Assembly: GCA_947454525.1 (NCBI GenBank)
Contig: CANGJM010000002.1
Coordinates: 62,001 to 126,000 of the forward strand
Length of the DNA: 64,000 nt
Origin: Flavobacteriales bacterium
GTDB lineage: Bacteria > Bacteroidota > Bacteroidia > Flavobacteriales_D > Crocinitomicaceae
Reading direction: 5' to 3'
This document shows, in pieces, positions 3,409 to 19,777 of the stretch (position 1 is its first letter; the number at the start of each line of letters is the position of its first letter). The notes beneath the pieces were generated by a model, which worked only from the letters and a program-made list of their open reading frames with translations, was not told the DNA's origin and searched no databases. The position numbers were made by a program, and so were the translations under genes.

Positions 3409-3412
3409 AGGT

Positions 3413-4353: not shown

Positions 4354-4356
4354 CCA

Positions 4357-5007: not shown

Positions 5008-5102
5008 AAGTGCTTGGTCTAGTGGTTGCGGCGCAAAGATAGGTAAATGTTTGGTTCAGTTTCCGTTTTCCGTTATTCGATGTACGTTTTCAGATGTCCG
5101 TT

Positions 5103-5159: not shown

Positions 5160-5160
5160 C

Positions 5161-5400
5161 TTACTCTGCGTGTTTAGCGTAGATTAGTTGACATACGGTG
5201 TCCATCGCTTTAAACAGCGTTACATCAAATTTCGGGGATGTGGTCAATTTGGTCATGGAGGAAACGGCATCGAAGAGTAGTTCGTTTTCACGTTGAGGGA
5301 TCCGTTCGATGAAGGTAATTTCCTTGCTTCCTTTCTGTGATTCCGAGACGATGACTTCGTTGGTGGTCAAATCGATGGCAAATAATAGGGTCTTTTTCAT
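5161..5400 (-). CDS. Hypothetical protein (79 aa)
   Basis: A 79-residue protein with no recognised domain. It starts MKKTLLFAIDLTTNEVIVSE, a weak beta-hairpin rather than a signal peptide, and continues with mixed charged helices. It lies 21 nt after the HNH gene on the same strand and may be co-transcribed with it. A functional link, such as an immunity or accessory protein for the HNH gene, is possible only on position. Coding status is moderately supported by the ATG and operon-like spacing. Confidence 0.5.
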   Translation of the reverse strand: MKKTLLFAIDLTTNEVIVSESQKGSKEITFIERIPQRENELLFDAVSSMTKLTTSPKFDVTLFKAMDTVCQLIYAKHAE

Positions 5401-5421
5401 TTTGTGCGAGCTTGTTGGATC

Positions 5422-5841
5422 TTAGTGAAGGTAGCAGCGTCCACTGGAATTCGTTGTTTTGTTCTTGCAACGGACACCTTTTTGAGTGGTTCCGGTACAT
5501 TGTCGAGCGGTCGTTGTTGGTTGTTTTGTCGAGCCACCATCGCAGCAATTGGTTCCAACTGTTCTATCGTGTATTTTGCAGGTGCAACTGTTCGATTTAC
5601 TTCGGTTACAGGACATGCACAGCAGTTGAATGTTTGACGCTTCACTGCTTCCGCCGCAAGAGTAAGGGGTGATGTGATCGTATTCCAGATTGGATGAACT
5701 TCCACAGCAATTACAGGTTCCGCCATCTCGGGTGAACACGATTTGTTTCGTCGTCTCCGAAATATAGCGACTCTGTGAAAAGCCGGAGATGCTGATGAAT
5801 AGGAGTGCGAGGAATAAAAGGAATTTTTTCGTTGTTTTCAT
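5422..5841 (-). CDS. Secreted HNH-nuclease-like protein with Cys/His tail
   Basis: A 139-residue protein with a clear signal peptide (hydrophobic core 8-20, GFSQ cleavage region about 20-23). An HNH domain follows: C43-x-C-C46, D55-H56 in the DHITPYSCGG block, N70, and C75-x2-C78 with CNRSKS. The C-terminal 26 residues form a second putative zinc site (C115, C125, C136, H139) resembling the short QCxGxTKKGxRC domain (DUF5763-like). HNH proteins cut DNA; export of one is unusual and would place it in the periplasm or outside the cell. The gene begins 6 nt after a ParD-like gene. Whether it is catalytically active is unknown. Confidence 0.78.
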   Translation of the reverse strand: MKTTKKFLLFLALLFISISGFSQSRYISETTKQIVFTRDGGTCNCCGSSSNLEYDHITPYSCGGSSEASNIQLLCMSCNRSKSNSCTCKIHDRTVGTNCCDGGSTKQPTTTARQCTGTTQKGVRCKNKTTNSSGRCYLH

Positions 5842-5847
5842 TTGATT

Positions 5848-6048
5848 TTAGTCTTTTCTTAGATATTTTAAATGAATTAGTTTCAGCTGTTCTTCAGGAC
5901 TAAAATCGTCTACCCATCCGCTTTCTTCACCAACAATTAGCGCCTTACGGATCACCTCAATTACTGCTTCGGAACTTCCAGGTGTTAGTTCATTTGCGAA
6001 GAATTGCTCAAAATGATTTTCGAGATCATTCGGGGTATTTTTACTCAT
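5848..6048 (-). CDS. ParD-like antitoxin (orphan)
   Basis: A 66-residue protein with the ParD pattern: NHFEQFFANEL, then SSEAVIEVIRKALIVGEESGWVDDF, the ribbon-helix-helix antitoxin segment and its toxin-binding tail. No ParE-type toxin gene is seen on either side. Downstream, 6 nt away, is the secreted HNH gene; upstream is a 155-nt spacer with nothing convincing. It may be a relic of a parDE pair or may regulate the downstream operon. Confidence 0.65.
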   Translation of the reverse strand: MSKNTPNDLENHFEQFFANELTPGSSEAVIEVIRKALIVGEESGWVDDFSPEEQLKLIHLKYLRKD

Positions 6049-6203
6049 ATTATTTTAGATGAACTTAAAACTACCAAAAATTCATAAGGTTCATACAATT
6101 CGTGATCTTATTTATTGGAATGATTTGAAAGGCAGACAATATGTTGGACTTTTTCATCAAATTAACTACAGAATAACTTCTATACCATTCATGCGAAAGG
6201 CTC

Positions 6204-6740
6204 TCATTTTCTAATCAAGGTGATGGTATCGATGCTTTTTTCGGTGTCCCAGGCTTTTTGGTCACTTGGATTTCTTTCTAGGACTTCGATTTTAAGGGTT
6301 TCCTTGAGTTCGTTGGTTAAGAAACGCACGCGAGCATTTTCATCTGCGAACTCGGCAAATTCCATGGGATGATAGGGAAGGACTCTAAATTTATGCAAAT
6401 CGTTCTTTGTTAGGTTATCGAAAGACATGCTCAAAATGTATTTGTAATCGGATTCCGATGGATAATCCTTGACACTATTTTTATTTTTTTCAATCCAGAT
6501 TTCTGCCAATTGAAAAGAATCTGATGCATCAGCTGAATAGTATGTTTTTGCATCAGGAATATAGGATCCTAGGTAAACATGTTGTTTTTTGGCTTCTTGA
6601 ATGGAGGAGGATGAGGAATAAGGTCCACGAGGCTTTTCTTCACCGGCTTTTTCCCACCAATTGTAACATTGTCTGAAGACGAAAATCAGAAAAAGAACAA
6701 TCAATATTCCCTTGGAAAAATTCTTTTCTCTTTTATTCAT
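6204..6740 (-). CDS. Hypothetical membrane-anchored protein
   Basis: A 178-residue protein of no recognised family. Residues 10-25 (GILIVLFLIFVFRQCY) form one membrane segment or uncleaved signal anchor; the remainder is hydrophilic, with a serine run (SSSSS) just after the anchor. It starts 5 nt after the YD-repeat-like gene ends, which indicates an operon. The membrane anchor suggests a periplasmic-facing or envelope protein. Confidence 0.6.
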   Translation of the reverse strand: MNKREKNFSKGILIVLFLIFVFRQCYNWWEKAGEEKPRGPYSSSSSIQEAKKQHVYLGSYIPDAKTYYSADASDSFQLAEIWIEKNKNSVKDYPSESDYKYILSMSFDNLTKNDLHKFRVLPYHPMEFAEFADENARVRFLTNELKETLKIEVLERNPSDQKAWDTEKSIDTITLIRK

Positions 6741-6745
6741 GCTTG

Positions 6746-7651
6746 TTAATAATAGCTAATTGTTCGTTCCACAATATAGTATTTTCCACCATCATCAATG
6801 TACATTTTGATCCAATTTCCAGTGGAATCATATTCGTATGTGTTGCGTTGAATTCCCGTAATTTCTCCATCACCATCTTTTTCGACGACCTCGATTTCAT
6901 TCCCATTTTCATAGGTGTAATCAATGGTTCCATCGGGTTCCCCTTCTTCGTAGTCCAACCAGTGTTCCAAGGTTTTCTGTTTATTGACATATTGATAGGT
7001 TGTTATTTCAACCATTCCTTCATCGTTGTCAGACCATTCATGTTTCACTAACAGATTAGTGCTATCGTATTCGAAGGTCTCCATTTCGGAGTATGTTCCT
7101 TTTACGTAGTCAATTTTAACTAGGTTGTTTAAGGAGTCATAAGAAAAAGTTTCCGTTGAAATGAGTTGATTGGATAGGTATTCCTCTTTTTTAACAAGTG
7201 TGTTTTTATCATTGTAGTAGTACTTAAAGTCTGACTCTATGTGTTTGTCACGAAAGATTTCCTTTGATGAACAGATGTTATTCAGCGAATCGTATGTAAA
7301 AAAGTATTCAAGGTTTCCGTTTTTGATGTCATACACGACTCTGTTTTTGTCATCCAATTTAATGGAATAAGTAACGTAGGGACTTCCGTTTTTAATGTCC
7401 TTTTTTAATTCTAGCAAGCCAAATGTATTGAAGTGAAATTCCTGATCAAATTCCCAGGAATATTGCCAGCCTTTAGTCGCTTTTACGAATTTGTTATTTT
7501 CTTTTTTAGCAAGAAAGGAAGTTGTATGGATCTTTTTCACCTTTCCTTTAAGATTACAACTTTCGAGCTTGTCAAAAGAAAGCGTAGGAATTTGACCAAA
7601 AGCACCGAAGTAACAAAGGCTACAGAGAAAGAGTAAGAATCCTTTTTTCAT
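6746..7651 (-). CDS. Secreted protein with YD-like repeats
   Basis: A 301-residue exported protein starting at the ATG at 7649-7651, which begins a good signal peptide (MKKGFLLFLCSLCYFGAFGQ); the frame opens further upstream but that part has no signal character. The body carries repeated tyrosine-aspartate units of the form (Y/F)xYDSxxN: FFTYDSLNN, FSYDSLNN, FEYDSTN, YEYDSTGN, spaced about 25-45 residues, reminiscent of RHS/YD repeats and common in Bacteroidetes surface proteins. It is followed after 5 nt by the membrane-anchored hypothetical protein. Confidence 0.7.
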   Translation of the reverse strand: MKKGFLLFLCSLCYFGAFGQIPTLSFDKLESCNLKGKVKKIHTTSFLAKKENNKFVKATKGWQYSWEFDQEFHFNTFGLLELKKDIKNGSPYVTYSIKLDDKNRVVYDIKNGNLEYFFTYDSLNNICSSKEIFRDKHIESDFKYYYNDKNTLVKKEEYLSNQLISTETFSYDSLNNLVKIDYVKGTYSEMETFEYDSTNLLVKHEWSDNDEGMVEITTYQYVNKQKTLEHWLDYEEGEPDGTIDYTYENGNEIEVVEKDGDGEITGIQRNTYEYDSTGNWIKMYIDDGGKYYIVERTISYY

Positions 7652-7768
7652 GGAAGAGATTTCGAGTTGCTTCGATAAAATTACACGATTCAAGTGGAAA
7701 AGCAAGGGTTGAGATCTATTCGAATCTAGATTTATGAAAATGAAAAGAAGTCAGACAAGCGACACGAC

Positions 7769-8338
7769 TCATTTCACCAAATACACCAAGTATTTTTCGG
7801 CAGGGATGCTAAATCCAAGTTGTTCATCGTAAACATTCATCAACGTTCGGTAAAATCCAACATTCGAGTTTGGATGTGTGTTTCGGTAGCATTTCACCAA
7901 GTTAAGTGCTGAAATCTTGGACCATATTTCGGAAAGATCTGCTGAACTTGGATTGCCAATCCACTGAATTTTTGTCGAGTCGAAGGGAATAGATTCATTG
8001 GATGAACCCAAAACGTTCGGTTCAATTTTGGTCGCGTTATACGTGAGTTTGGACATTTTTTGCTCGAACAATACCAGGTCATTTGGTATGAATTTCCAAG
8101 CTATATAATTCTCAAATCCATCGTTCATCGTCAAATGGTATATCGGCAATTTGTTTTGGATCAATTCGGTGGTAGCTAGCTGGTATTCATACGCAGCATC
8201 GAATTCCGTTCCCACCTGCAGAATTAAAAAATTCCCCTTGGACTGATATTCATTCGGTATAGCCGAAGTTGGTACTTTCTCCTTTGTGCAGCTGAAGAAA
8301 AGGAAAGAAAGAAAAAATAGGAATGTAAAGGATTTCAT
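7769..8338 (-). CDS. Hypothetical lipoprotein
   Basis: A 189-residue protein with a lipoprotein signal peptide (phenylalanine-rich core, lipobox FLFFSC, Cys about residue 17). No family is recognised in the mature part. It stands alone between the YD-repeat operon (117-nt gap) and the decayed fragment near 8500. Location is probably the periplasmic or outer-membrane leaflet. Confidence 0.65.
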   Translation of the reverse strand: MKSFTFLFFLSFLFFSCTKEKVPTSAIPNEYQSKGNFLILQVGTEFDAAYEYQLATTELIQNKLPIYHLTMNDGFENYIAWKFIPNDLVLFEQKMSKLTYNATKIEPNVLGSSNESIPFDSTKIQWIGNPSSADLSEIWSKISALNLVKCYRNTHPNSNVGFYRTLMNVYDEQLGFSIPAEKYLVYLVK

Positions 8339-8483
8339 GGTGTTTCGTTTAAGTAAGTTTTAGACAAAACGTTCCTCGCATTGGGTATTCAATGCACGTA
8401 TGAATGTCAAATAAAGTAACGCTTAATTCCTACTTGAGGTGGTGTACCAGAAATCCCTAAATGAAATCTCCAATACGACATTT

Positions 8484-8550
8484 TCAACTCTTTTTTCTTG
8501 TCAAATAAATCACATAGGATAAGGCAACATTGAACACGATTACATGTGAC
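8484..8550 (-). pseudogene. Decayed 3' end of a membrane-protein paralogue
   Basis: On the minus strand this stretch encodes VIVFNVALSYVIYLTRKKS and a stop at 8484-8486. The intact membrane protein at 11076-11687 ends IVILFNVALSYVIYLTGKK. DNA identity is high over about 45 bp (TCAAATAAATCACATAGGA is shared exactly) and lost upstream, where a stop codon appears in frame. It is a remnant of another copy of that family, just downstream of the lipoprotein gene. Confidence 0.75.
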
Positions 8551-8564
8551 ACTAAACCGCTTAT

Positions 8565-8999
8565 TTAATCCGGTATTAAGCCAATATTCATTTTTCCAGC
8601 GGCGTAGTCATGGATATCAATGACGTACGTAAATTTACCAATCCCTAATGGTTGTTCTCCAACATAGTCGATTGGTTGCAATTTAAATTCTTTGTCACCG
8701 ATATTAAACCGAATATAAGCATAATGATATGCAGTATCAAATGAGCGATAGCAGGTCGTTTCACCTTTTTTTATAATACCGCAATTAACTGGTCCGGAAA
8801 CAGGATCTAAAACCACATTACAAAAATCGTATTTACTGATATTTGTAATCCGAATGTTTGTTTTGGTCGAATCTTCTGAACAGGCAGACACAGCATGTTG
8901 ATTACAGTTCTTAATGCTGTTTTTTTTGCATGCTGAAAAGATGAACATCATCAAAGATGTTAGCATAAGCGTTCGGAATAGGACTTTTGTTTCTTTCAT
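8565..8999 (-). CDS. Hypothetical lipoprotein with an upstream palindrome
   Basis: A 144-residue lipoprotein: signal peptide with core LMLTSLMMFIFSAC and acylated Cys about residue 23, followed by KKNS. The mature part is beta-rich with several cysteines (CNQHAVSAC, FCNVV, VNCG, TTCY) that could form disulfides. No family is recognised. An 18-bp near-palindrome lies 59-76 bp upstream of the ATG, the same element found before two other units of this locus, so it is probably co-regulated with them. Confidence 0.68.
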   Translation of the reverse strand: MKETKVLFRTLMLTSLMMFIFSACKKNSIKNCNQHAVSACSEDSTKTNIRITNISKYDFCNVVLDPVSGPVNCGIIKKGETTCYRSFDTAYHYAYIRFNIGDKEFKLQPIDYVGEQPLGIGKFTYVIDIHDYAAGKMNIGLIPD

Positions 9000-9057
9000 A
9001 TTGCTTATATTTAGTGATTATTCGATTATAAAGGTAGTGATTGATGGAGTGATATTT

Positions 9058-9075
9058 TTTAGTACTTGTTCTAAA
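9058..9075. promoter_or_regulatory. Candidate operator, copy 1 (imperfect palindrome)
   Basis: TTTAGTACTTGTTCTAAA matches the perfect palindrome at 18227-18244 at 16 of 18 positions, with the conserved half-site TGTTCTAAA intact. It is 59 bp upstream of the lipoprotein gene start. A -7-like TACCTTTA (minus strand, 9029-9036) lies between site and gene, with no -33 TTG at normal spacing, which would fit an activator-dependent promoter. Confidence 0.65.
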
Positions 9076-9088
9076 AGTCAATCAATTA

Positions 9089-9127
9089 TCACCTCAACAC
9101 CAACTTCTTAAGACTTTGGTGTCTTGT
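9089..9127 (-). pseudogene. Remnant of a T9SS sorting-domain 3' end
   Basis: In a frame different from the gene that ends at 9127, the minus strand reads RHQSLKKLVLR and stop (TGA at 9089-9091). This resembles the C-terminus WVKKLVVR of the T9SS protein at 11722-13326, and the DNA ACCTCAnCACCAACTTCTT is shared between 9091 and 11722. It appears to be the leftover end of a second copy of that gene family. Confidence 0.55.
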
Positions 9128-10908
9128 TATAACTTTATGATTTTCCCTAACCAACTTCTCGACTTTCCAATTATTTTAATGTGGTATTTACCAGCGAGTT
9201 CCGAGTTTAGGTCTACTTCGAAGCCATTAAATGCCGAAACTTGTTTATAGTTGGCTACTAGGCGACCGAATTCATCGGTGATTTGAATATCGAGTAATTC
9301 ATTGGTTGGTAAAAGGATCGTGAACGAATTAAAAGTAGGATTTGGATACATGTTTAGTTCCGCTTCATTGTTGTCGGGGACATGTGCCTCTTGAATTAAT
9401 TCATAAACTAAAGTGTCTTTACAGCCTATGGTGCTCACTGTCATTTGATAAGATTTAGACTGCGCATATTGATGCTGGACAAAAAACAGTTCGCTTGAAT
9501 CGGAATAAGAAGTTTGGAAGTTGGTCGAAGGAGTACCATCACCCCAATCAATGGTTGTTTCAAAAAATGAATCAGCCTCAATTTGAACTGAGACTAATCC
9601 ATCTTGCTCATTGGTTTGAACATTGTGCATCATATCTGTCATTCTACCTAGGCAGTTGACTTTGGCTACGAAGGCTTTTTGGTAAAAGAAAAAATCTTCC
9701 ATAATGCCTCCATAAATGATAATATCATCGTTCGGCAATGAAATATAACCTAGTCCTAAAGTAGAATTTTCACTAGACGTATGAAAAGACCGTTCCCAAA
9801 TTTTTTCGCCATTTGGGTCTATACAAAGTAAGCGCGTTTGTAGGCTTTGGTCACCATCCATTTGCTGAAAGTCGCCATCAGTTCCTTTAAAAATATCGTT
9901 ACCGAAAAATAAAAGGTTGCCAGATTCGAGCTTCAATGCCCCCCAAATATTTGATGCATAGGGTTTTGCTTGGTCTTGAAGATGCAATTTTTGAATTGGA
10001 TAATAGTTTTCCCAGAGAAGATTCCCTTCTTGATTAAATTTTTTGATATAACTTATAAAATGCGTATTATTTACGGAATTTGAGGAATCTCTTACACCAA
10101 AGAAAAACAAACTACTATCAGAATTCTGAAATGAACAAGATGTTATATTTTGATTCAACAAAAACAATTGTTTTTTCCATGTGAAATCTTCATTTAATAA
10201 AAAGAATTGCCCTATTGATGAATTGATACTTGTATTTGAACGTATTTGAACTAGATAAGATTTATTTAGTAATTGTCGAACATGATGAATAGTGCCAATA
10301 TTTGAAGGTATATGTGGAATAATATGTGATAAATCTGTGGTGAACTTTAATGCCCCAGTTGTGTCAAAAATACCAATTAATGCACGTGAATTAGGACTTC
10401 GACCAAAGCAAATTATATCGCCATTTTTTTGGATGGTAAATTCAGAATACCAATCTGAATCTATTATAGATGGGTATGCATCTAACTCAAATTCTGTACT
10501 AATTCCTTGTTGTATATTCGTGTACTTTCGGAGGGTTCTTACAACGTTATCCTGCATTCCCATATCAATGAACTGGTCGTCAACAAACCCTGATGAAAAT
10601 GGTGGATTTTCAATTCCCATTAATGCAACGTTAGGCTCAATTCTCTTTTCAAGGAGCACTCCTGTATTAACATCAATAAACTCGAGTGTCCGTTGATAAA
10701 TTTGGTCATTTCCACCCAAAAATTGTTGACCCAATAATAAAACAGTGTCCTCAGATAACAGTACTCCTCCGGCATAAAAATGATAATATGAAGGATGAGT
10801 TGAATCTGAAGCTAAGTGAATTCTATTAAAATACGGATAACTTGAAGGGGTTTGAGACCTAACCCAAACCCCATAAAACATGACTGCGGCAAACGCTATA
10901 AATCTCAT
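9127..10908 (-). CDS. T9SS-exported protein with PKD-like domain
   Basis: A 593-residue secreted protein. An N-terminal signal peptide (RFIAFAAVMFYGVWVRSQ) leads into a long beta-propeller-like region rich in repeated phrases about event or value displays, then a PKD-like domain (about 440-505; TIDWGDGTPS), then a type A sorting domain (about 515-593; MYPNPTFNSF ... GKYHIKIIGKSRSWLGKIIKL shortened to KIIKL end). The T9SS would carry it across the outer membrane to the surface or medium. Its ATG overlaps the stop of a 54-codon frame (ATGA), placing it in the operon with the membrane protein and the two-component genes. Confidence 0.85.
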   Translation of the reverse strand: MRFIAFAAVMFYGVWVRSQTPSSYPYFNRIHLASDSTHPSYYHFYAGGVLLSEDTVLLLGQQFLGGNDQIYQRTLEFIDVNTGVLLEKRIEPNVALMGIENPPFSSGFVDDQFIDMGMQDNVVRTLRKYTNIQQGISTEFELDAYPSIIDSDWYSEFTIQKNGDIICFGRSPNSRALIGIFDTTGALKFTTDLSHIIPHIPSNIGTIHHVRQLLNKSYLVQIRSNTSINSSIGQFFLLNEDFTWKKQLFLLNQNITSCSFQNSDSSLFFFGVRDSSNSVNNTHFISYIKKFNQEGNLLWENYYPIQKLHLQDQAKPYASNIWGALKLESGNLLFFGNDIFKGTDGDFQQMDGDQSLQTRLLCIDPNGEKIWERSFHTSSENSTLGLGYISLPNDDIIIYGGIMEDFFFYQKAFVAKVNCLGRMTDMMHNVQTNEQDGLVSVQIEADSFFETTIDWGDGTPSTNFQTSYSDSSELFFVQHQYAQSKSYQMTVSTIGCKDTLVYELIQEAHVPDNNEAELNMYPNPTFNSFTILLPTNELLDIQITDEFGRLVANYKQVSAFNGFEVDLNSELAGKYHIKIIGKSRSWLGKIIKL

Positions 10909-11069
10909 TCAAGAATAATTAATTTTTCAAATTCGGTTGGCATACTAAAATCACATGGCAACCAACTAACTAACGGAGTTGAGGCAGAAATATTATTTTC
11001 CGCCTGAATTTTATTGTGATCAGTAGTTTCCATCAAAGAATGACTAGTATGATATGGAGTGTACGTCAT
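10905..11069 (-). CDS. Possible small protein (54 aa)
   Basis: An ATG at 11067-11069, 6 nt after the stop of the membrane protein gene, opens a 54-residue frame beginning MTYTPYHTSHSLMETT and ending FEKLIILE. Its TGA overlaps the ATG of the downstream T9SS gene as ATGA. The two tight junctions are what one expects of a translated operon gene, and an otherwise unexplained 167-nt gap is filled. It has one cysteine, no membrane segment, and no recognised family. It could instead be a chance frame. Confidence 0.5.
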   Translation of the reverse strand: MTYTPYHTSHSLMETTDHNKIQAENNISASTPLVSWLPCDFSMPTEFEKLIILE

Positions 11070-11075
11070 GTGAAA

Positions 11076-11687
11076 TTATTTTTTTCCTGTCAAATAAATC
11101 ACATAGGACAAGGCAACGTTGAACAAGATGACGATGGAATATACATATGGGAATAAGCGCATAAAGAGTGACATGTCGCTTCGGATGATGTCTTCAAAAA
11201 TGAAATACAATATGAGTGTAGAATAATAGGTGAAAACAGACACGGCGAAAAGCTTTTTGCCATTTTGAAGGGATTCTTTTGAACGAACTACGAGGTAAAA
11301 ATTGATGAAAATGACAAGGGAATAAGTGTATATTGTTGCATACCAGTTATTCAACCAAAAGTCCCAGGTTGTAAGAAATTCAATCAGAGCAATTAGTAAA
11401 ACACTAGCTTGAAACAAGCGAATGGTTCTTGTTTTAAACAGTGCTTGACTTCGGGCAAGTTCCAAGTAAAAAAGACCTTCGCAGACCACCGTAAAGTGAG
11501 CCATTGGCAAAGAGGAATCGAGTTGTTTTTCCAAGAAAAGACTGATCACATCTGTTATAAATCGATAAAGAAAAAAGGCCAGTAATAACTTGTTAAACTT
11601 GGAATGCTCCATTTTTTTCCAAGTAGTTAGGAAAAAAAATACGGGAAGCACACTTGATAAAGACGCGAAATAATAAAAGTAGCTCAT
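11076..11687 (-). CDS. Multi-pass membrane protein, paralogue A
   Basis: A 203-residue integral membrane protein with about six or seven hydrophobic segments. The ATG at 11685-11687 is chosen over an upstream TTG because it aligns with the paralogues at 16790 and 17502 (pattern MxxFxxxxxxxxxxSxLP). It shares their layout, including a conserved region near PMAHFTVVCEGLFYL, equivalent to PAAHISICIEFYILL and PAVHFSVLFEFYILL. No family name is known to me. It sits in the operon of the kinase, regulator and T9SS genes. A 7TM-type signal receptor or transporter are both conceivable. Confidence 0.75.
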   Translation of the reverse strand: MSYFYYFASLSSVLPVFFFLTTWKKMEHSKFNKLLLAFFLYRFITDVISLFLEKQLDSSLPMAHFTVVCEGLFYLELARSQALFKTRTIRLFQASVLLIALIEFLTTWDFWLNNWYATIYTYSLVIFINFYLVVRSKESLQNGKKLFAVSVFTYYSTLILYFIFEDIIRSDMSLFMRLFPYVYSIVILFNVALSYVIYLTGKK

Positions 11688-11721
11688 GGGACTCAAAAGT
11701 TGTATTCGTTCTATTATTTAC

Positions 11722-13326
11722 CTACCTCACCACCAACTTCTTCACCCATTGCTGTTCTCCTTGCGAAATATGCGCAAAATAAACTCCCGTTGCTTGTTCA
11801 CTCATATCAAAGGAATTATCAGAAGAAAGTTTATTGAGCTCAAATACTGCCACTTGTTTTCCTTGCTGGTCTAGCATGGTAATAAGCATGGGTTCTTCAC
11901 TTAAGCTAGAAACTTGAAAAATTCCGTCAGAAGGGTTGGGAAAAATTCCGATTTCTGTAGCTGTGGCATTAACTACTTCTATTCCTAAATATTGTCCGGC
12001 TTGATCGTATCCGTCTGGGTCGGTTCGGTAGGTGAAGTAATAGGTACTGTCTGAACTTGCTCTGGTTGCACCTGCAAACAATAAATCTCCATTATTGGCT
12101 ATTGTCATAGAAGTTAAATATTGTTGGGGATCACCATTGATTAAAAAATGTTTACAAAAAATGCGATTTCCAGCCATATTTCGTTTTTCTAGAAAAAACA
12201 GAGGCTCGAATGTGTTATTTTGATTTGTAACATTTCCATAAACAAAAATTGAATTTGTAAAGGTGTCGATGACAAGTTGTGGGTTGTCGTTATACAAATA
12301 TTGACTTTGAGGAAGTGTTCCAACTTTTTCACACCATTGCACATTAAATGTAGAATCCATTTTGTTTACAAAGACTTTGAATACATCTTCACCATTATTA
12401 CATGTTTCAGATCGTGTAGTAAGAAATGCTAATTTGTCCTTTTTTGAATCAGCAGATACGACCCAATCACAGGCAATTGATGAATTATGAAGGCTAAAGT
12501 CCTTATAAATTTCTTGGAAGGAAATGACAGAATCTTGATTCCAATACCAAATTGTTGGAGAGCCACCAAAAAAATCATTGTTTGGATGTAGTCCATCGGC
12601 TCTGATTTGTTCACCAATAGATAGGTAAGCATTTTTAAATGGAAACGTATATTGCAATTGGCCTTGAACAATAGGTAAGTTTGCATAAACATTACCCAAT
12701 GGTAATTCTATGGAATCTAAAATTGTAGCATCATTTTGAAGTAACAAAACATACGGCTTGGTATAAATTGACCCAAGTGCGGGAGAAATGATACTTGGAT
12801 TGAAATATGTTTTGAATCCTGATAGTGCAGATAAATTATAATCAAGTTCTGTGGAATGCATATAACGCTGAAGGGTATCAATAGAGAATTTATTTTTGTG
12901 AATGATACCTGTATTGTAATCAAACAACGCCAAATGTAATGAATCATCTAAGACTTGGTCATCTTCTTCTTTATAACCCATCATTAGAACATCGGATCGC
13001 TTTACAAGACCCGTTGAATATGTTAAAGTATATAGTGAATTTATATGTGTTGTATCTATGTATTTCCATAAGAGTGAATGGTTGTTTTTATCTAGACTTA
13101 TAATCCCCGCATAGCGATTAAAATTATACCCTTCATAACCTGAAAGGAAATATTGTTCTCCAATCTCATAGATGTATGTACCTTCAAAATAAGTATAAAC
13201 CTGTGGCAAAGTAGTTACGGCCGGAGTTGAATATTTGTAAAGCCCTCTAATAGGATTAGTAGATTGAGAAAAACTGGTGAATGCAGCCAAAAAGCATAAA
13301 ATGAGTAAGATTGCACGTATTTTCAT
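11722..13326 (-). CDS. T9SS-exported protein, beta-propeller-like
   Basis: A 534-residue secreted protein with signal peptide (ILLILCFLAAFTSFSQ), a long beta-rich body without a recognised enzyme motif, and a sorting domain (about 455-534; IGIFPNPSDGIFQVSSLSEE ... ending WVKKLVVR). The tail is closely related to that of the protein at 14962-16551, so these are paralogues. It follows the response regulator gene after 46 nt and precedes membrane paralogue A by 34 nt. A surface or secreted role is expected; substrate or partner is unknown. Confidence 0.85.
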   Translation of the reverse strand: MKIRAILLILCFLAAFTSFSQSTNPIRGLYKYSTPAVTTLPQVYTYFEGTYIYEIGEQYFLSGYEGYNFNRYAGIISLDKNNHSLLWKYIDTTHINSLYTLTYSTGLVKRSDVLMMGYKEEDDQVLDDSLHLALFDYNTGIIHKNKFSIDTLQRYMHSTELDYNLSALSGFKTYFNPSIISPALGSIYTKPYVLLLQNDATILDSIELPLGNVYANLPIVQGQLQYTFPFKNAYLSIGEQIRADGLHPNNDFFGGSPTIWYWNQDSVISFQEIYKDFSLHNSSIACDWVVSADSKKDKLAFLTTRSETCNNGEDVFKVFVNKMDSTFNVQWCEKVGTLPQSQYLYNDNPQLVIDTFTNSIFVYGNVTNQNNTFEPLFFLEKRNMAGNRIFCKHFLINGDPQQYLTSMTIANNGDLLFAGATRASSDSTYYFTYRTDPDGYDQAGQYLGIEVVNATATEIGIFPNPSDGIFQVSSLSEEPMLITMLDQQGKQVAVFELNKLSSDNSFDMSEQATGVYFAHISQGEQQWVKKLVVR

Positions 13327-13372
13327 AGCTTGTGTTTTTAAGGTTCAAATTCATTGTTTACTGACAGCTTTT

Positions 13373-14122
13373 TTAAGCATTCGGATCCCGGAGGCGTTGC
13401 ATGCGTCGTTCTAACTTTTCTATTTCGGAGGCTTCGATTTCTGCCTGTATTTCTTCGTTGGTTCTTGGGGTGTAAAATCCATCGAGGATGCTCAAACGCA
13501 TGAGTTCATTCGATGTTTTGACCTGATAAGCCTTGAGCAAGCGCGTGCGAATCAAGTCGACCGTTTTTTTCGAAGTACTGATGCGATCTCCGATTTCCTT
13601 GCTGGTTAATCCATCGCATAAATAGTGTAAGACCCTTAAATCTCGGTCGGAAAATCCACGGAAAATTTGTTTTTGCTGCCGCTTGTGGTGTTTGTATTTT
13701 TCGTTTTCAAAAGAATTTTCGGAAAAGGCACTTAAAAAAGCCCCGTTTAACTGGACTTGTTCAATGGCAAATATCATTTCTTCCATGGAACATTCTTTTA
13801 ATAAATAAGAAGCTGCTCCGAAGCGCAGGCATTCCATCGCAATTTCAGGGTCGTTGTGCATCGATAACATAATGGCCTTCACCTCCGGATGCGAAATACT
13901 CAATTGTTGCACCGTTTGAATGCCATTTAAAACGGGCATTTCGATGTCTAAGAGTACAATGTCCACCTCGCTTGACTGCAATTGGTCTAAGAATTCTTGT
14001 CCGTTGGCTGCAACAATCACCAGATTCAAATGCGCGTAGGCCTGGAGCATACTCGCTAAGCCTTGCCTAACAATGGCATGGTCGTCTACAAGCGCGAGGC
14101 GTATGTGCGTGGATTCAGTCAT
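13373..14122 (-). CDS. LuxR/NarL-type response regulator
   Basis: A 249-residue response regulator. Receiver domain: acidic pair D13-D14, phosphoacceptor D59 in VLLDIEMP, S87 and K109 in SYLLKE. Output domain: LuxR helix-turn-helix at about 155-215 (FSDRDLRVLHYLCDGLTSKE, IGDRISTSKKTVDLIRTRLL). A charged C-terminal tail of about 30 residues is extra compared with typical members. Its ATG directly follows the stop of the histidine kinase with no gap, so it is the cognate partner. NarL-type dimers bind short palindromes, so it is the prime candidate for the three 18-bp palindromes around this locus. Confidence 0.93.
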   Translation of the reverse strand: MTESTHIRLALVDDHAIVRQGLASMLQAYAHLNLVIVAANGQEFLDQLQSSEVDIVLLDIEMPVLNGIQTVQQLSISHPEVKAIMLSMHNDPEIAMECLRFGAASYLLKECSMEEMIFAIEQVQLNGAFLSAFSENSFENEKYKHHKRQQKQIFRGFSDRDLRVLHYLCDGLTSKEIGDRISTSKKTVDLIRTRLLKAYQVKTSNELMRLSILDGFYTPRTNEEIQAEIEASEIEKLERRMQRLRDPNA

Positions 14123-14929
14123 TTAAGCGAATTGAAGTTCAGTGATTAAATGAATCTCCCCCTGCTGTGCATGGCGTTGAAAGGAAAGTTTCGCGGAGAT
14201 TTGTCGGCAACGATAGCGAATATTATCTAATCCTTGTCCGTTTGTATTGGTCTGCAATTTTTCATAGTCCTCGCCGCTCAAGGCGATGCCATCGTGTTGT
14301 ATCGTCAAGTGCATTTGTGGTGCATGGTAGTCCAATTTCATGTTGACCTTTTTTGGCAAACTATGTTTCATCAAGTTGGTCATGAGTTCACTGGCAATGT
14401 AAAAGAAATGCGTCATGGTTTCCTCTTGGATGCGCAGTTTTGGGGGGAGGTTGGACTCGAATTGAAAATCATCACTCAGGACATTTGTTTTTTGTTGTCC
14501 CATGCGCTCTAGTCCTTTGGAGAGTCCAAACTTCTGCAAGTAAAAGGGCATCAGATCGTTGCTCATGCTGCGAATTTCCTCGATGCTTTGTTGGATTAAA
14601 GTCGAAGCATTCGAAAGGGTAAGCGCTTGCTGAGAAGACAACTGGGATTCATCTTCGAGTAATTGCAAGTTCTTTTGGGCCATGGACAGTAAGGCGCCTA
14701 GTTCATCGTGTAGTTTGCGTGCGATTTTACTGCGTTCGGCTTCTTGTGTGGAAACGGTCAAGGCTAGTTTGTCGTTTTCTTGTCGTTCAATTTCATCCTT
14801 CAGTAATTGCTCACCCAAGGCTTTGATCTGCCGATTTTTATCCGCGAGAAAAACCATCCCAATTCCCATCACAAGAGAAAAGAGCATTCCAAGGTTGATC
14901 AATAAAGCGAGTTCTTCCGGATTTTTCAT
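14123..14929 (-). CDS. Histidine kinase with minimal sensor region (HisKA_3)
   Basis: A 268-residue kinase starting at the ATG at 14927-14929, since a longer frame would overlap the upstream gene without added signal. One membrane segment (about 8-29), a coiled linker, the HisKA_3 box with H74 (ERSKIARKLHDELGALL), an N-box (ASELMTNLMKHS), a reduced G1 motif (IQHDGIAL) and G2 (GQGLDNIRYRC). It should autophosphorylate and pass phosphate to the adjacent LuxR-type regulator. There is essentially no periplasmic sensor domain, so sensing probably depends on partner proteins. It follows a T9SS gene after 32 nt. Confidence 0.92.
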   Translation of the reverse strand: MKNPEELALLINLGMLFSLVMGIGMVFLADKNRQIKALGEQLLKDEIERQENDKLALTVSTQEAERSKIARKLHDELGALLSMAQKNLQLLEDESQLSSQQALTLSNASTLIQQSIEEIRSMSNDLMPFYLQKFGLSKGLERMGQQKTNVLSDDFQFESNLPPKLRIQEETMTHFFYIASELMTNLMKHSLPKKVNMKLDYHAPQMHLTIQHDGIALSGEDYEKLQTNTNGQGLDNIRYRCRQISAKLSFQRHAQQGEIHLITELQFA

Positions 14930-14961
14930 GTAGTTATAGTGTATTCTAAAGTTAGGTAAAC

Positions 14962-16551
14962 TTATTGCAGCACCACTTTCTTCACCCAAAACTGATCGCC
15001 TTGTTTTACATGAATAAAGTATATTCCTGGAGCTTGGTTTTCTAGTTGAATGGTTGATGTAAATTGACCTTCTAACTGAATTCTTGAACCTTGTTGATCA
15101 TATACTTCAACTTCCATTGGTTCTTCAGACAAACTTTCTAAATGAAAAATTCCTGTTGATGGATTCGGGTAAACACCCAACTCGTTTTGATTGACTTGTG
15201 TTTCTTCGATGCCTAGGTAATCGGCATATTTGGTGATTCCATCCGGAGTAAATCGTATGATGAAAATAGGTGGGGACTCATAAGTATCCTCGTACGATAG
15301 TTGACCACTAAAAGCGATGTCTCCATTTGGACAAATGCTTCCTGCCCATATAGTCAATTTATATATTTCTTTTGTTGTTGAATAATTGGAATCAAAATAT
15401 TTCTTGAATATAAATTGCCCATTATAATCTAATTTATAAATGAATTGCTTGTAATAACTATAATCATTTCCAATAATATTAAAAATTGTCCCAGAAACAT
15501 AAATCCATTGATTTACTGTGTCGACAACGAGTGTATTCGCAGAAAATTCAAATTGATCTAATGGAAATGAGGTATTATTTCGTAAATCTTTTGTCCATTT
15601 TATGTGAAGATTGGAATCTACGTATCTTAAAATCATTTTAATCGGACCAAAACTAACTTGGCCATTTTCATACATCCAATCATCATCTCTGGATAAAGAA
15701 ACATATTCATTTTTTTTTGCTTCTTGCACATTTTTAACTAATGTGGCTTTCAAAGTATCAGATTCTGTAAGGAATTGTTCAGACAAAATCTGGCCATTTT
15801 TACTTGTGAAAATTCTGGTCTTGCAATAAGATTGATTGCCAAACATTGCATTTTTATCAACAAATGAAATAATAGAGGAATCTTTGTATTCGAATGATTT
15901 ACGAACATTAATTGGTTGCCAACCCATTGACCAAAGATTGGGTTGAAAAAAAGTATTGCTAATGATTTCTCCATCTGGGGTTATATTTAATAAAACCCCT
16001 CCTCCCAGAGAGTCAACATTATTTATTCCACTTAATAGGATTGAGCTATCTTTTAATTCCTTTACATCAAAAATTTGAATCTCATTTTGATTTGAGTCAA
16101 AATATTTTTTTCTAAAAATGATATTTCCATTAGGCGCATATTTGCTAATAACCAGTTGAAAATTGGCTGGGTCATCGTTTATGCCTGGTTCACCCTGATC
16201 TGTGACCGTCAAATAATTTCCATCAAGAGTAGTTATAAGAGAATAATACCACATGATTCCTGAATTATTGTAACCTTCAGTAATGTGATCCCAAACATAC
16301 CCCTTCCATTCTTCATCAATGCAAAAAGCATATGATTTTTGATCCCAACCTCCTGATAAGCCTATATTACCCGCTCCAATATATGTAGAATCTGTAGCAA
16401 TTAGCGCGGAGCACTGAAAGACGTAATAATCATTAGTGACGAAACCAGCAGCTGGTGTCCAATATTTTTCAAAGTAATCGGGATGATTGTTCTGCTGGGT
16501 GAACGCAAAAGAAAAAATCATCAGGGATATAACTAAAAGTGTCTGTTTCAT
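14962..16551 (-). CDS. T9SS-exported protein, paralogue of 11722-13326
   Basis: A 529-residue secreted protein: signal peptide (LLVISLMIFSFAFTQ), long beta-rich body, and a type A sorting domain (about 455-529; GVYPNPSTGIFHLESLSEE ... FWVKKVVLQ). It is the first gene of the presumed operon T9SS protein, kinase, regulator, T9SS protein, membrane protein, small protein, T9SS protein. A palindrome lies 66-83 bp upstream of its ATG. Its body is similar in style to, but not clearly the same family as, known propellers. Confidence 0.86.
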   Translation of the reverse strand: MKQTLLVISLMIFSFAFTQQNNHPDYFEKYWTPAAGFVTNDYYVFQCSALIATDSTYIGAGNIGLSGGWDQKSYAFCIDEEWKGYVWDHITEGYNNSGIMWYYSLITTLDGNYLTVTDQGEPGINDDPANFQLVISKYAPNGNIIFRKKYFDSNQNEIQIFDVKELKDSSILLSGINNVDSLGGGVLLNITPDGEIISNTFFQPNLWSMGWQPINVRKSFEYKDSSIISFVDKNAMFGNQSYCKTRIFTSKNGQILSEQFLTESDTLKATLVKNVQEAKKNEYVSLSRDDDWMYENGQVSFGPIKMILRYVDSNLHIKWTKDLRNNTSFPLDQFEFSANTLVVDTVNQWIYVSGTIFNIIGNDYSYYKQFIYKLDYNGQFIFKKYFDSNYSTTKEIYKLTIWAGSICPNGDIAFSGQLSYEDTYESPPIFIIRFTPDGITKYADYLGIEETQVNQNELGVYPNPSTGIFHLESLSEEPMEVEVYDQQGSRIQLEGQFTSTIQLENQAPGIYFIHVKQGDQFWVKKVVLQ

Positions 16552-16616
16552 AGGATTAGATTTCGTTTCGTTAAATGTAATTTTTAATCAACTGATAAAA
16601 AAACACTTACTTCAAT

Positions 16617-16634
16617 TTTAGTACATGTTCTAAA
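16617..16634. promoter_or_regulatory. Candidate operator, copy 2
   Basis: TTTAGTACATGTTCTAAA differs from the perfect palindrome at 18227 by one base. It is 66 bp upstream of the T9SS gene that leads the kinase-regulator operon, so if the regulator binds here the system controls itself. A -7-like TACATTTA is at 16572-16579 on the minus strand. Confidence 0.7.
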
Positions 16635-16789
16635 GATGGAATTCACTAACCGAACAGGCTTTAAATGAACCAGATAGTTTACGCTTGGTATCCCTCAATT
16701 GCTTGTTATTGAAAAAGTTAACAGCAATAATCACTTTCATTTGGAACCCATAAAAATCCAGCGTTTCTGCCAAATCCTGATTTTCATGT

Positions 16790-17449
16790 TCAATACGCGG
16801 AGTTCAATGATTGCTTGGTGAATTTATCAGCGGATGAATGATTTGAACGGATAATTCCCCACATGAAAGCAACACTTAAAGCTGCGTTGATGAGGGCAAA
16901 GAGCGGAAATACCATGTCTAACACAAGTGGATTGACGATCATCAAATTTCCAAAAGCCTCATGAACGAAGCATACTAAAAAGTACAGGAAAAAGGCGGTA
17001 ACAAAGTTACTTTCTTTCTTCTTTAATCCGATTTTATAGATGATTCGAAAGGCAAAACAAGCATTTGCAAAAAAGTAGATAACTCCGCTCAACTTGACAA
17101 ATTCATACAGAGATGTAACCCAAAACGCATCCGCTAAAAAGGGAAGAAGACCTGCGATGGCAATGACTTGAATGTGTTTTATCGGCAATATCGCATGAAA
17201 CAAGTAAAGCAGGATATAAAATTCAATACAAATCGAAATATGTGCTGCGGGAATCGGGTTTGAATCTAAGAAATCAAGCAGTATGATCTGCGACGCGTGG
17301 TGCAGGACATTGTAGATAAAATAGGCTATCAATCCCCTTCGTACCTGTTTCGAAAATCCTTTGAGCGCTCTGGGGAACAAGGCAAGTGCGATGAAGGGCA
17401 GTAAGCTTGTTGCAACGGTGGAGTAGTAAATGGTATTAAAAAAGTCCAT
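16790..17449 (-). CDS. Multi-pass membrane protein, paralogue B
   Basis: A 219-residue integral membrane protein with about seven hydrophobic segments and a hydrophilic C-terminal tail. It is clearly homologous to the adjacent protein at 17502 (shared YxVLHHAxxIIL, PAxHxSxxxEFYILLxLFH, IxPIKxIxxI, LPFLxDxFW) and more distantly to the one at 11076. No characterised family is recognised. It lies 52 nt downstream of paralogue C and 238 nt upstream of the T9SS gene. Confidence 0.75.
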   Translation of the reverse strand: MDFFNTIYYSTVATSLLPFIALALFPRALKGFSKQVRRGLIAYFIYNVLHHASQIILLDFLDSNPIPAAHISICIEFYILLYLFHAILPIKHIQVIAIAGLLPFLADAFWVTSLYEFVKLSGVIYFFANACFAFRIIYKIGLKKKESNFVTAFFLYFLVCFVHEAFGNLMIVNPLVLDMVFPLFALINAALSVAFMWGIIRSNHSSADKFTKQSLNSAY

Positions 17450-17501
17450 AGGGTCTAAATTGAGTGAATATCCTTTTAATGAAGTTCCTGTATGAACGGA
17501 A

Positions 17502-18134
17502 TTACGTCGTTTTCACAGAAAGTCTTTTTCGCTGTTCAAGTACTCCCCATGTCAATACTGAATAAAAGATTAGGTGGACCACCATAAAAACAGGCACCAC
17601 TTGGAGAAAAATGCTTATGTTTTCGATGATAAAATGATAAAATACAGAATAGGCCAAGCAGCATAAAAAGTATAAAAGAAGCGTAATGGAGAAAATGGTT
17701 TCTTTTCCCTCAAAGCCTTTTTCGTAAATGATTTTATAGGAAAAGTAGATGCTTGTGGAATAATACAATACCGAACTCACGATCACATCCTCCATTAATG
17801 TGGATGTCCAAAACAAATCCAACAAAAAGGGAAGGACACCAAGAATGGAAATCAGTCGAATGCGTTTGATTGGTCGGATGCCGTGAAACAAAGAAAGGAG
17901 GATGTAAAATTCAAACAAGACAGAAAAATGTACCGCAGGTTCGGAATCTCGAATCCAATATTGGAGGATAATACACGCTACATGATGCAGCACTAGGTAA
18001 ACAAAAAACCAAATTAAGCCCTTGCGCACAGCCTTGCTAAATCCTGCTAAGGAATGAGGGAATAGGATGTAGGTAATAATGGGCAATAAACTGGCTGAAA
18101 CAGTAATCCAATAAATAAAATGAAATAAACGCAT
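17502..18134 (-). CDS. Multi-pass membrane protein, paralogue C
   Basis: A 210-residue membrane protein, the tandem partner of paralogue B, with the same seven-segment pattern and conserved histidines in LVLHHVACIIL and AVHFSVLFEFYILL. It is the first gene of a two-gene unit and is preceded, 93-110 bp upstream, by the perfect 18-bp palindrome. Conserved His and Glu inside membrane segments could mean ligand or ion binding; that is a guess. Confidence 0.75.
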   Translation of the reverse strand: MRLFHFIYWITVSASLLPIITYILFPHSLAGFSKAVRKGLIWFFVYLVLHHVACIILQYWIRDSEPAVHFSVLFEFYILLSLFHGIRPIKRIRLISILGVLPFLLDLFWTSTLMEDVIVSSVLYYSTSIYFSYKIIYEKGFEGKETIFSITLLLYFLCCLAYSVFYHFIIENISIFLQVVPVFMVVHLIFYSVLTWGVLEQRKRLSVKTT

Positions 18135-18226
18135 AGTCGGTATGGGTATAATATGTTGAATTCGCCGATTTGAAAGTTAGGAAGAAAATGGATGTTTTAA
18201 AAATGCGGTATCTACATTGTGTCATA

Positions 18227-18244
18227 TTTAGAACATGTTCTAAA
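18227..18244. promoter_or_regulatory. Candidate operator, copy 3 (perfect 18-bp palindrome)
   Basis: TTTAGAACATGTTCTAAA equals its own reverse complement. It has no loop and no GC stem, so it is a protein-binding site type rather than a terminator. It lies 93 bp upstream of membrane paralogue C and is the best of three copies within 9.2 kb. Confidence 0.75.
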
Positions 18245-18460
18245 GATGACAAAGTGCATCATTGCAGCGCATTTTTTTGTTTTTGAGAAATGACATACAA
18301 CATACTACACCTTCTGAGTTAACGTTATTTTTCATCCATTAGAGGTGAGGCTTTGGATAATCTGAATGAAATTCCAAACATACAACGACCATTTTAAATC
18401 GTAAATTATGTATGTTCGCAAAAACCACCTTGACTTTCCCCCACGAAATGTTATCAACAA

Positions 18461-18493
18461 TTGAGGTAAATCGCTTGAAAGCAAGTATCTTTG
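18461..18493 (+). promoter_or_regulatory. Promoter of DUF4494-pdxH-M16 operon
   Basis: TTG at 18461-18463, 22-bp spacer, TATCTTTG at 18486-18493, matching the Bacteroidetes sigma-ABfr form TTG-N17-23-TAnnTTTG. The start site would be about 18499, giving a leader of only about 14 nt before the ATG at 18513. Confidence 0.65.
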
Positions 18494-18512
18494 TAAGCTA
18501 AAAAATTACCTC

Positions 18513-19136
18513 ATGAATAGTTGGTTTACCGTTAAAGTAAAATACACAAAACAATTAGAAAACGGATCGTTTAAACGTGTTTCCGAACCTTATTTATTAG
18601 CTGCCATGACCTTTACGGATGCAGAGGCGCGTATCTATGAGGAATTGGGTACGACCATTCGTGGTGAGTTCCAAGTAACGGGAATTGCACGAACGGATTT
18701 ACATGATATTTTTCAATACGACGACACTGAAACATGGTTCAAATGTAAGGTGACTTACGACCGCATGGACGAAGAAGGAGAGAAAGCGAAAACCGTTTCT
18801 CAAAACTTCTTGGTTTCTGCAGCAAACGTGAAAGAAGCGTATGAGCGCACGGTGGAAAGTTTGTCGACCATGATGATCGATTTCGTGATTGCTTCCATCG
18901 TTTCTTCTCCAATCGTAGAGATTTTCCCTTACCGCGAGGAAGATGTTCAGAGTCCAGCTATGAAAAAAATCGCTGTTGAAGACGACATCGAAGAACGCAC
19001 ACCTGTTCGTGCCGTATTCTCTGCTTCTGGATCTGATTTCGACGATACCGAAGAAGAAGTTTTTGTAGCGGATGAATCTGATGATGATACTACAAGTGAG
19101 TTAGAGGACGATTTTTCGAATGACGAAGACGAATGA
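18513..19136 (+). CDS. DUF4494 family protein
   Basis: A 207-residue cytoplasmic protein. Residues 1-140 match the Bacteroidetes-specific DUF4494 pattern (WFTVKVKYTKQLENGSFKRV, YLLAAMTFTDAEARIYEE, FQVTGIARTDLHDIF, TWFKCKVTYD). The last 45 residues are highly acidic and probably disordered. The function of the family is unknown. Its stop overlaps the start of pdxH by 4 nt (ATGA), indicating translational coupling. Confidence 0.88.
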   Translation: MNSWFTVKVKYTKQLENGSFKRVSEPYLLAAMTFTDAEARIYEELGTTIRGEFQVTGIARTDLHDIFQYDDTETWFKCKVTYDRMDEEGEKAKTVSQNFLVSAANVKEAYERTVESLSTMMIDFVIASIVSSPIVEIFPYREEDVQSPAMKKIAVEDDIEERTPVRAVFSASGSDFDDTEEEVFVADESDDDTTSELEDDFSNDEDE

Positions 19137-19777
19137 GTGAATGGTTGAAAAAATACCGTGAAAATCATGCGGATTTCGACAAAGGTGAATCGTTGACAGA
19201 TCTTGGTTCGAATCCATTTGCCGCCTTTTCTCGCTGGTTCGATGAAGCTGTGCAGAACGGAGAAGTGGAAGCGAATGCATTTGTACTCAGTACCGCCACT
19301 GCGGAGGTAGGAGTGAGCTCGCGCATCGTTTATTTGAAAGAACTGAAGGATGAACGTTTTGTCTTTTACACGAATTACTTGAGTCAAAAGGGCCGACAAA
19401 TGGCGGCACACCCACATGTTTCTATGTTGTTTTTTTGGCCAGGATTACAGCGTCAATTGCGCATCGAAGGTACGGTTGAGAAAGTTTCAGAGGAAGTAAG
19501 CGACGCCTATTTTGCTTCGCGTCCAAGGGAAAGTCAACTGGGTGCTTGGGCATCCCAACAATCGAGCGAATTGGCACGAACCGAAGACTTAATCGCTGCA
19601 TTCGAGAAATACGACCGTCAATTTCCAAACGAGGTCCCGCGTCCACCACACTGGGGAGGATATGCGATTCAAGCAACCAGCATCGAATTTTGGCAGGGAC
19701 GTCCATCGCGCTTGCACGACCGTGTGGTGTTTCAATTCCATGAAAATACATGGAAACAAATCCGTAAAAATCCATAA
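19133..19777 (+). CDS. pdxH: Pyridoxamine 5'-phosphate oxidase
   Basis: A 214-residue flavoenzyme that oxidises pyridoxine or pyridoxamine 5'-phosphate to pyridoxal phosphate using FMN and O2. Visible family blocks are SSRIVYLKEL, FVFYTNYLSQKGRQM, FFWPGLQRQLRIEG, SRPRESQLGAWASQQS, the PRPPHWGGY motif and the C-terminal WQGRPSRLHDR substrate loop. Length is standard. It overlaps the genes on both sides (ATGA upstream, TAATG downstream). Confidence 0.96.
   Translation: MSEWLKKYRENHADFDKGESLTDLGSNPFAAFSRWFDEAVQNGEVEANAFVLSTATAEVGVSSRIVYLKELKDERFVFYTNYLSQKGRQMAAHPHVSMLFFWPGLQRQLRIEGTVEKVSEEVSDAYFASRPRESQLGAWASQQSSELARTEDLIAAFEKYDRQFPNEVPRPPHWGGYAIQATSIEFWQGRPSRLHDRVVFQFHENTWKQIRKNP

Follow-up and report, generated by a model that had tools for sequence, protein, structure and literature searches.

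A variable genomic island of an uncultured freshwater Crocinitomicaceae bacterium that joins seven-helix membrane proteins, a HisKA_3/NarL-type switch and exchangeable type IX secretion proteins

Background

Many bacterial sensor kinases have no visible sensor, and some are known to work with a membrane protein that is encoded separately: UhpC, of the UhpC-UhpB-UhpA system, is a transporter-type protein, and LiaF, of LiaF-LiaS-LiaR, belongs to another family. In the 7TMR-DISM receptors and the LytS-type sensor BtsS, the helices are fused to an output domain. PorX-PorY provides two-component control of type IX secretion. BtsS is described as a 7-transmembrane receptor and as a sensor for extracellular pyruvate, and mosaic surface-protein variants that depart from the genome phylogeny are reported for Porphyromonas gingivalis (PMC5266723). 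The locus described here, in a stretch of 64,000 nucleotides (G000:C2:62001-126000, the window) from an uncultured freshwater bacterium, combines seven-transmembrane (7TM) proteins, a histidine kinase, a response regulator and cargo of the type IX secretion system (T9SS). The source genome (2.83 Mb, 34 contigs, 99.86% complete) has as its nearest named relatives metagenome-assembled genomes labelled Flavobacteriales or Crocinitomicaceae (L106 Kiruna_bin-11606, L107 Ww78 and L111 Ww7).

The reading to which we incline, by a modest measure, is that detachable 7TM receptors drive a shared, autoregulated kinase and regulator controlling exchangeable surface propellers. The stand-alone, receptor-like products of memA, memB and memC, with the N-terminus outside and the C-terminus inside, would bind something at or outside the membrane and would set the activity of one shared HisKA_3 kinase with a short single-helix anchor. 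The kinase would phosphorylate the NarL-type regulator, which would then bind palindromes of the form TAGWACNNGTWCTA and activate three local units (the receptors; the kinase and regulator together with the T9SS beta-propellers; and a lipoprotein) in positive feedback. The propeller passengers and some of the receptors may be swapped as cassettes between related genomes, the kinase, regulator, promoters and T9SS sorting tails staying constant, so that one switch would be kept and display, perhaps sensing, would be varied.

Results and discussion

Linkage of the membrane protein, kinase and regulator genes

ORFs (open reading frames) were called with a simple longest-ORF script and T9SS genes in the loci were recognized by their tail motif, and counts of neighbourhoods, copies and palindrome distances are accordingly approximate. 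A kinase gene is found near 55 of the 56 distinct clusters of membrane protein genes, the sole exception lying at a contig end, and the commonest spacing between membrane gene and kinase gene is a 22-nt overlap (31 of 56 values). A search that started from the kinase (80 loci kept, 79 with a kinase ORF) detected a membrane protein beside 44 of the 46 close kinases (hidden Markov model, HMM, E <1e-45); the other two start right at a contig end (nucleotides 16 and 3). The joint occurrence of membrane family, HisKA_3 kinase and regulator, posited in an earlier, sequence-only reading of this DNA, was thus borne out across genomes.

The constant arrangement is usually a 104-aa protein, a membrane protein, a kinase with one N-terminal helix and a LuxR-type regulator, in that order. 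The 104-aa family, for which no match was found in Pfam or NCBIfam, has a C-terminal end of the form CPxxC...LNS and precedes the 7TM-kinase pair in most clusters; it is absent from clusters of the window's type, in which it is the membrane gene that occurs in multiple copies, as many as seven. Across the phylum it occurs in 23 of 395 genomes, and 25 of 26 loci examined outside the genus have an adjoining multi-helix ORF (by hydropathy count, some loci overlapping), the single locus without one (L262) overlapping another (L239) in which the gene is present. Members of the family include L055:7092-7406 and, in the source genome, G000:C14:68638-68949 and G000:C1:160073-160384; some distant members have an N-terminal hydrophobic segment. 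In the Flavobacterium loci L149-L168, the surroundings of a regulator-kinase pair are conserved; a T9SS-like gene is close by and the 7TM gene is absent.

Gene content and extent of the island

All genes of the locus lie on the minus strand; their order is memA, memB, T9SS-1, kinase, regulator, T9SS-2, memC, a 54-aa frame, T9SS-3 and a lipoprotein gene. The features, with window coordinates, are as follows.

5831..18435, unstranded: variable genomic island holding the module; the flanks are 200 bp apart in the close relative G114
18227..18244, unstranded: palindrome 1, before memA, candidate regulator site, from the palindrome scan of window and genome
17502..18134, minus: memA, 7TM membrane protein, 210 aa, no Pfam or NCBIfam family
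16790..17449, minus: memB, 7TM membrane protein, 219 aa, with AlphaFold2 model and fold comparisons
16617..16634, unstranded: palindrome 2, before T9SS-1, from the same scan
14962..16551, minus: T9SS-1 (T9a), exchangeable beta-propeller passenger (predicted) and sorting tail; Por_Secre_tail at residues 460-527
14123..14929, minus: HisKA_3 histidine kinase, 268 aa, one N-terminal hydrophobic helix, no sensor domain (Pfam; start aligned to orthologues)
13373..14122, minus: NarL/LuxR-type response regulator, 249 aa (Response_reg and GerE)
11722..13326, minus: T9SS-2 (T9b), exchangeable passenger and sorting tail; Por_Secre_tail at residues 461-533
11076..11696, minus: memC, third 7TM membrane protein, from alignment to memA and memB; copy in L107
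10905..11069, minus: 54-aa frame overlapping the T9SS-3 start, from the ORF list; no homologue among the loci searched
9127..10908, minus: T9SS-3 (T9c), weakly conserved accessory; Por_Secre_tail 31.1 bits, few homologues
9058..9075, unstranded: palindrome 3, before the lipoprotein gene, from the same scan
8565..8999, minus: putative lipoprotein, 144 aa, FSAC lipobox judged by eye
8491..8543, minus: remnant of a memC 3' end, 48/53 bp identical to that of memC

The genes named in the sequence-only reading are all present as ORFs, and Pfam supports the kinase (HisKA_3 37.8 bits, above the cut-off; the HATPase match is below it), the regulator (Response_reg 90 and GerE 31.7 bits, both above) and the three T9SS proteins. 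Kinase and regulator have the features of a HisKA_3/NarL two-component system, namely a HisKA_3 domain and a response regulator with a LuxR-type helix-turn-helix, and each T9SS protein has the C-terminal Por_Secre_tail (PF18962) that marks T9SS cargo, at 31.1, 46.4 and 48.9 bits against a cut-off of 27. The most likely start of the kinase is ATG 14929 rather than TTG 14989, because the orthologue in L043 and L107 begins there; for memC, ATG 11687 is a likelier start than the listed TTG 11696. The partial memC copy of 53 bp downstream of the lipoprotein gene forms the left edge of the locus and, judged by its alignment, is the leftover of a further membrane protein copy.

The three membrane proteins are paralogues, as had been claimed (memA and memB ~42% identical, memC ~20%), and the shared palindrome links units of the locus; the single operon that had been proposed, with the paired membrane proteins and the lipoprotein joined to it by the palindrome, is replaced by a different division. 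Because the palindrome at 16617 stands before the first T9SS gene, the locus reads as three palindrome-led units, not as one operon and two linked genes. Nor is the set amplified together, as had been supposed: multiplication is confined to the 7TM genes, the T9SS genes being exchanged. Of the members counted earlier, the 54-aa frame, the lipoprotein and T9SS-3 are not stable ones, being poorly conserved or not conserved; for the first two, homologues were absent among the loci searched.

The extent of the island was evident from close relatives, where the neighbouring M16 peptidase is conserved at 97-99% identity (G112, G107, G114, G036 and a fragment in G113). Matches of G114 (L289) to window positions 32-5830 and 18436-21130 are only 200 bp apart, which indicates an empty site for ~12.6 kb, and because of this empty site the unit of variation is placed at about 5831-18435, a larger range than that first drawn. 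At the same site, two T9SS genes are present in G002; G107 carries one, along with a palindrome and two accessory genes. The 7TM-kinase unit is absent from both. The locus is better described as a variable genomic island with three palindrome-led units. Two accessory genes at its edge (window 6746-8338, encoding 319 and 189 aa) recur at the same site in relatives.

The membrane protein family

The membrane proteins and their relatives matched no Pfam or NCBIfam family, and the PDB yielded no sequence related to them. With a profile built from memA, memB and memC, the family was detected in 14 of 100 related genomes, which all belong to a single genus; a 31-sequence profile detected it in 27 of 86 genomes of that genus. 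The AlphaFold2 model of memB, built with 62 sequences, has seven helices (mean predicted local distance difference test score, pLDDT, 94.5; predicted template modelling score 0.88). Among the matches listed by Foldseek for this model are rhodopsins, G-protein-coupled receptors and one "membrane protein" (E at least 0.08, template modelling score ~0.5, probability near 1); VIA-align gave Z of 11.1-13.6 across the best 50 rows, almost all of them receptors, a rhodopsin or designed folds like those of G-protein-coupled receptors. Sequence identity in these comparisons is 4-15%. The likeness of the memB model to receptor and rhodopsin folds is counted as a resemblance, because helical bundles can reach such Z values without kinship. 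Positive charges (mean lysine plus arginine 2.2-2.9 in loops 1, 3 and 5 and the C-terminus, 0.4-1.1 in the N-terminus and loops 2, 4 and 6) predict a topology with the N-terminus outside and the C-terminus inside. The retinal-binding lysine of microbial rhodopsins sits in helix 7; a lysine occurs in the helix-7 region of just 19 of the 62 sequences and none is conserved, and a reading as a microbial rhodopsin is not supported.

The 7TM proteins might be inhibitors or clamps of the kinase, in the manner of LiaF on LiaS, in an envelope-stress switch that is released by disturbance of the membrane or of T9SS traffic and has T9SS proteins as ordinary targets. The gene arrangement, which resembles that of LiaFSR in its membrane protein, HisKA_3 kinase and NarL-type regulator, speaks for such a switch, as does the one-helix anchor of the kinase, which would suit membrane sensing; PMC3543457 presents LiaF as a negative regulator. 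We nevertheless regard it as unlikely: the 7TM genes multiply and vary, which suits a choice of ligands better than a single inhibitor, and the modelled fold of memB is receptor-like.

Exchange of T9SS passengers

The model of T9SS-1 (pLDDT 70.7) has four-stranded blades followed by the tail; among the structures that match its fold best are beta-propeller enzymes and Sec12, taken to be propellers from their titles. The flanking DNA of L106 is 93-96% identical to that of the window; in this relative the kinase (98.6%), regulator (93.6%) and memB (88%) are kept, there are two other membrane proteins, memA, memC, T9SS-3 and the lipoprotein are absent, and the T9SS passengers are different; L107 has a copy of memC that is 82% identical. 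Identity between the T9SS-1 proteins of L106 and the window is 22-45% in each of the first eleven blocks of 40 alignment columns, then 72, 92 and 100%, and that between the T9SS-2 proteins is 2-38%, then 80-86%. In DNA, the homology ends at the T9SS-1 start codon and returns at about codon 442. The difference between passengers looks like block replacement rather than gradual divergence in these alignments. Three adjoining T9SS genes in L294 (G022:C35, 81-6580) share a 3' end of the T9SS-2 type at 78-86% DNA identity and have differing passengers.

Searched without its tail, T9SS-1 has matches in 6 of 86 genomes: those in G114 (77%), G112 (39%) and G107 (32%, partial) are on the same contig as a 7TM gene and within ~8 kb of it, that in G036 is a piece at a contig edge (95% over 42 aa), its cluster being continued on a different contig, and those in G113, where no 7TM gene was detected, are contig-edge fragments only. 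The closest passenger, in G114, adjoins a different 7TM-kinase cluster, the kinase of which is just 43% identical (L117). T9SS-2 has 10 matches in 9 genomes, of which five lie within 8 kb of a 7TM gene (two in G000, including the window's own, and one each in G036, G107 and G112) and those in G022, G113, G010, G046 and G011 do not.

By the heuristic tail motif, T9SS genes account for 21 of the 91 genes of at least 250 aa near the module versus 5 of 58 farther away (p=0.018). The sequence-only reading had T9SS genes co-occurring with the module; this enrichment upholds it in part, many clusters being without such a gene. The 7TM proteins, kinase and regulator could be a real signalling system, and the T9SS genes and the lipoprotein cargo that has no relation to it, carried by a recombination hotspot in a genome rich in T9SS genes (105 Por_Secre_tail matches). 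Such cargo would explain why G107 and G002 have T9SS genes at the island site without the 7TM-kinase unit, and why 33 of 50 clusters have no T9SS neighbour. It leaves aside the palindromes, which precede T9SS genes both inside and outside the cluster, and the proximity to 7TM genes of the T9a relatives (G114, G112 and G107) and of five of the ten T9b matches, and we give it a small chance.

The palindrome and the regulator

Scanning of the window with up to three mismatches allowed located the 18-bp palindrome TTTAGAACATGTTCTAAA at 18227, 16617 and 9058, with 0, 1 and 2 mismatches respectively (0.10 occurrences expected), before memA, T9SS-1 and the lipoprotein gene; the form TTTAGWACWTGTTCTAAA occurs with 0 mismatches at only these three places in the 2.83-Mb genome. 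The same palindrome site precedes memA in L043 and, in L106, the third of the membrane genes. A search for the core TAGWACNNGTWCTA covered 60 genomes, of which the 37 of the genus contain 73 sites, 19 of them at most 600 nt upstream of a 7TM gene (0.07 expected); 18 of 45 7TM genes have a strict palindrome within 600 nt. The 13 genomes with the 7TM family have 64 sites (control pattern, 16) and the 24 without it have 9 (control, 24), a difference in site counts with Mann-Whitney p=3e-7 (control p=0.75), the counts having been transferred by hand from two earlier tallies. The counts in window, genome and genus against expectation rule out a chance origin of the palindrome.

Regulators were aligned (51, of which one, truncated, was excluded) and split by eye according to their recognition helices. 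A strict site, scored within 320 nt of the 104-aa or 7TM gene, accompanies 21 of 35 regulators with the helix [ST]KKxxDxxR versus 0 of 15 without it (p=3.6e-5). By eye, 11 of the 12 loci with helices of the form KK[NT]xDxxRT have AGAAC..GTTCT and the remaining one (L043) is mixed, and KKSIDxxR helices pair with AGTAC..GTACT in 6 of 6. Among 31 non-redundant sites of 56, boxes like the consensus TAnnTTTG (-7-like) number 39 at 22-80 nt downstream, versus 21.3+-4.4 in shuffles, with a roughly helical phasing near 10.25 bp (P=0.014 at 10.5 bp); this excess and phasing would fit an activator role of the regulator. Scans for sigma-70 promoters (38 versus 36.1 in shuffles) and terminators (5 versus 7.2) gave no excess.

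Outside the island, a core site precedes a T9SS gene on contig C10 of the source genome (L087:6229-7521), whose relative in G002 (L100:2762-4087) also has a site; this family is a possible further member of the regulon. On contig C9 (L086, G000:C9:105000-121000), positions 7914-9533 encode three adjoining small proteins like the C-terminal domain of the RNA polymerase alpha subunit, two of them above the Pfam cut-off, with the palindrome in two of their intergenic regions.

That the palindrome belongs to another regulator (such as a TetR- or LexA-like repressor) and merely marks recently exchanged promoters is improbable: NarL-type sites are often looser than such a palindrome and the 24 genomes that lack the 7TM family have nine sites between them, both of which count for it, but the sites track the 7TM-positive genomes and the recognition helix of the adjacent regulator.

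Weight and meaning of the evidence

Gene linkage, the association of the palindrome, the predicted folds, the replacement of passengers and the empty site are results of computation; contact of receptor and kinase, recognition of the palindrome by this regulator, activation as its direction and the purpose of the module are inferred. Several results weigh against detachable receptors acting through one autoregulated switch. Kinases with weaker HMM scores (E >=1e-45) have a 7TM gene in only 4 of 33 cases, the Flavobacterium kinases of the set having none, and the T9SS genes adjoin just 17 of 50 clusters. No strict palindrome lies within 600 nt of 27 of the 45 7TM genes, though many of these are operon-internal, or beside 14 of the 35 regulators with the matching helix, and three near-identical KKLVD helices are split, by eye, between the palindrome types (L089 versus L206 and L217). 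The Foldseek E of 0.08 belongs here too, as do Z values that, according to the warning of the tool, are within chance reach of helical bundles. All of the association tests use related genomes, the kinship of which inflates every one of them.

A wider proposal is offered more tentatively: stand-alone 7TM proteins with a receptor fold may form an undescribed class, present throughout the phylum, that serves HisKA_3 kinases as detachable sensor subunits, in most cases alongside the 104-aa partner. In this Crocinitomicaceae lineage the system may have turned into a hypervariable island for recognition, with receptors multiplied and propeller cassettes exchanged under one constant switch, perhaps distinguishing neighbours, prey or phages. 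For one class of Bacteroidota kinases without a visible sensor, the unnamed 7TM protein encoded just upstream would be the missing source of input, and the locus offers a concrete, putative pair of receptor and kinase for which a candidate binding site is mapped. The island would also show how exchangeable surface proteins can be coupled to a fixed two-component switch, a point of relevance to the diversification of type IX secretion cargo among close relatives.

Comparison with known systems

The 7TM family is unnamed and the composition of the system, as had been thought from the sequence, is without a named counterpart in the libraries and open-licence literature searched, in which no description of this module was found. 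A reading as a known anti-phage defence system is not supported, eight of its proteins having given one spurious match to PADLOC models, at E 0.0085.

The locus resembles UhpCBA and LiaFSR in that the gene of a membrane protein adjoins those of a HisKA_3 kinase and a NarL-type regulator, the gene group by which LiaFSR is recognized, and in the predicted reliance of the kinase on its membrane partner; NCBIfam matches to UhpB and LiaS occur among distant relatives of the kinase. It differs from them in that the partner is a 7TM protein with no Pfam or NCBIfam match, of which there are several copies per kinase; at the sequence level, no LiaF model of either library matched memA, memC or their relatives. 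With the 7TMR-DISM receptors and the LytS-type BtsS it would share seven-helix membrane sensors that feed histidine kinases, but the 7TM protein is encoded by a separate gene and gave no match to the 7TMR-DISM Pfam domain, which in those receptors is fused to a signalling domain. Like the allelic exchange reported for P. gingivalis, the exchange described here yields mosaic surface-protein variants; here, however, the exchanged passengers lie inside a module with its own receptor, kinase, regulator and palindrome. Finally, two-component control would be linked to type IX secretion here as in PorX-PorY, but through a regulator of the DNA-binding type with a LuxR helix, encoded beside the cargo genes.

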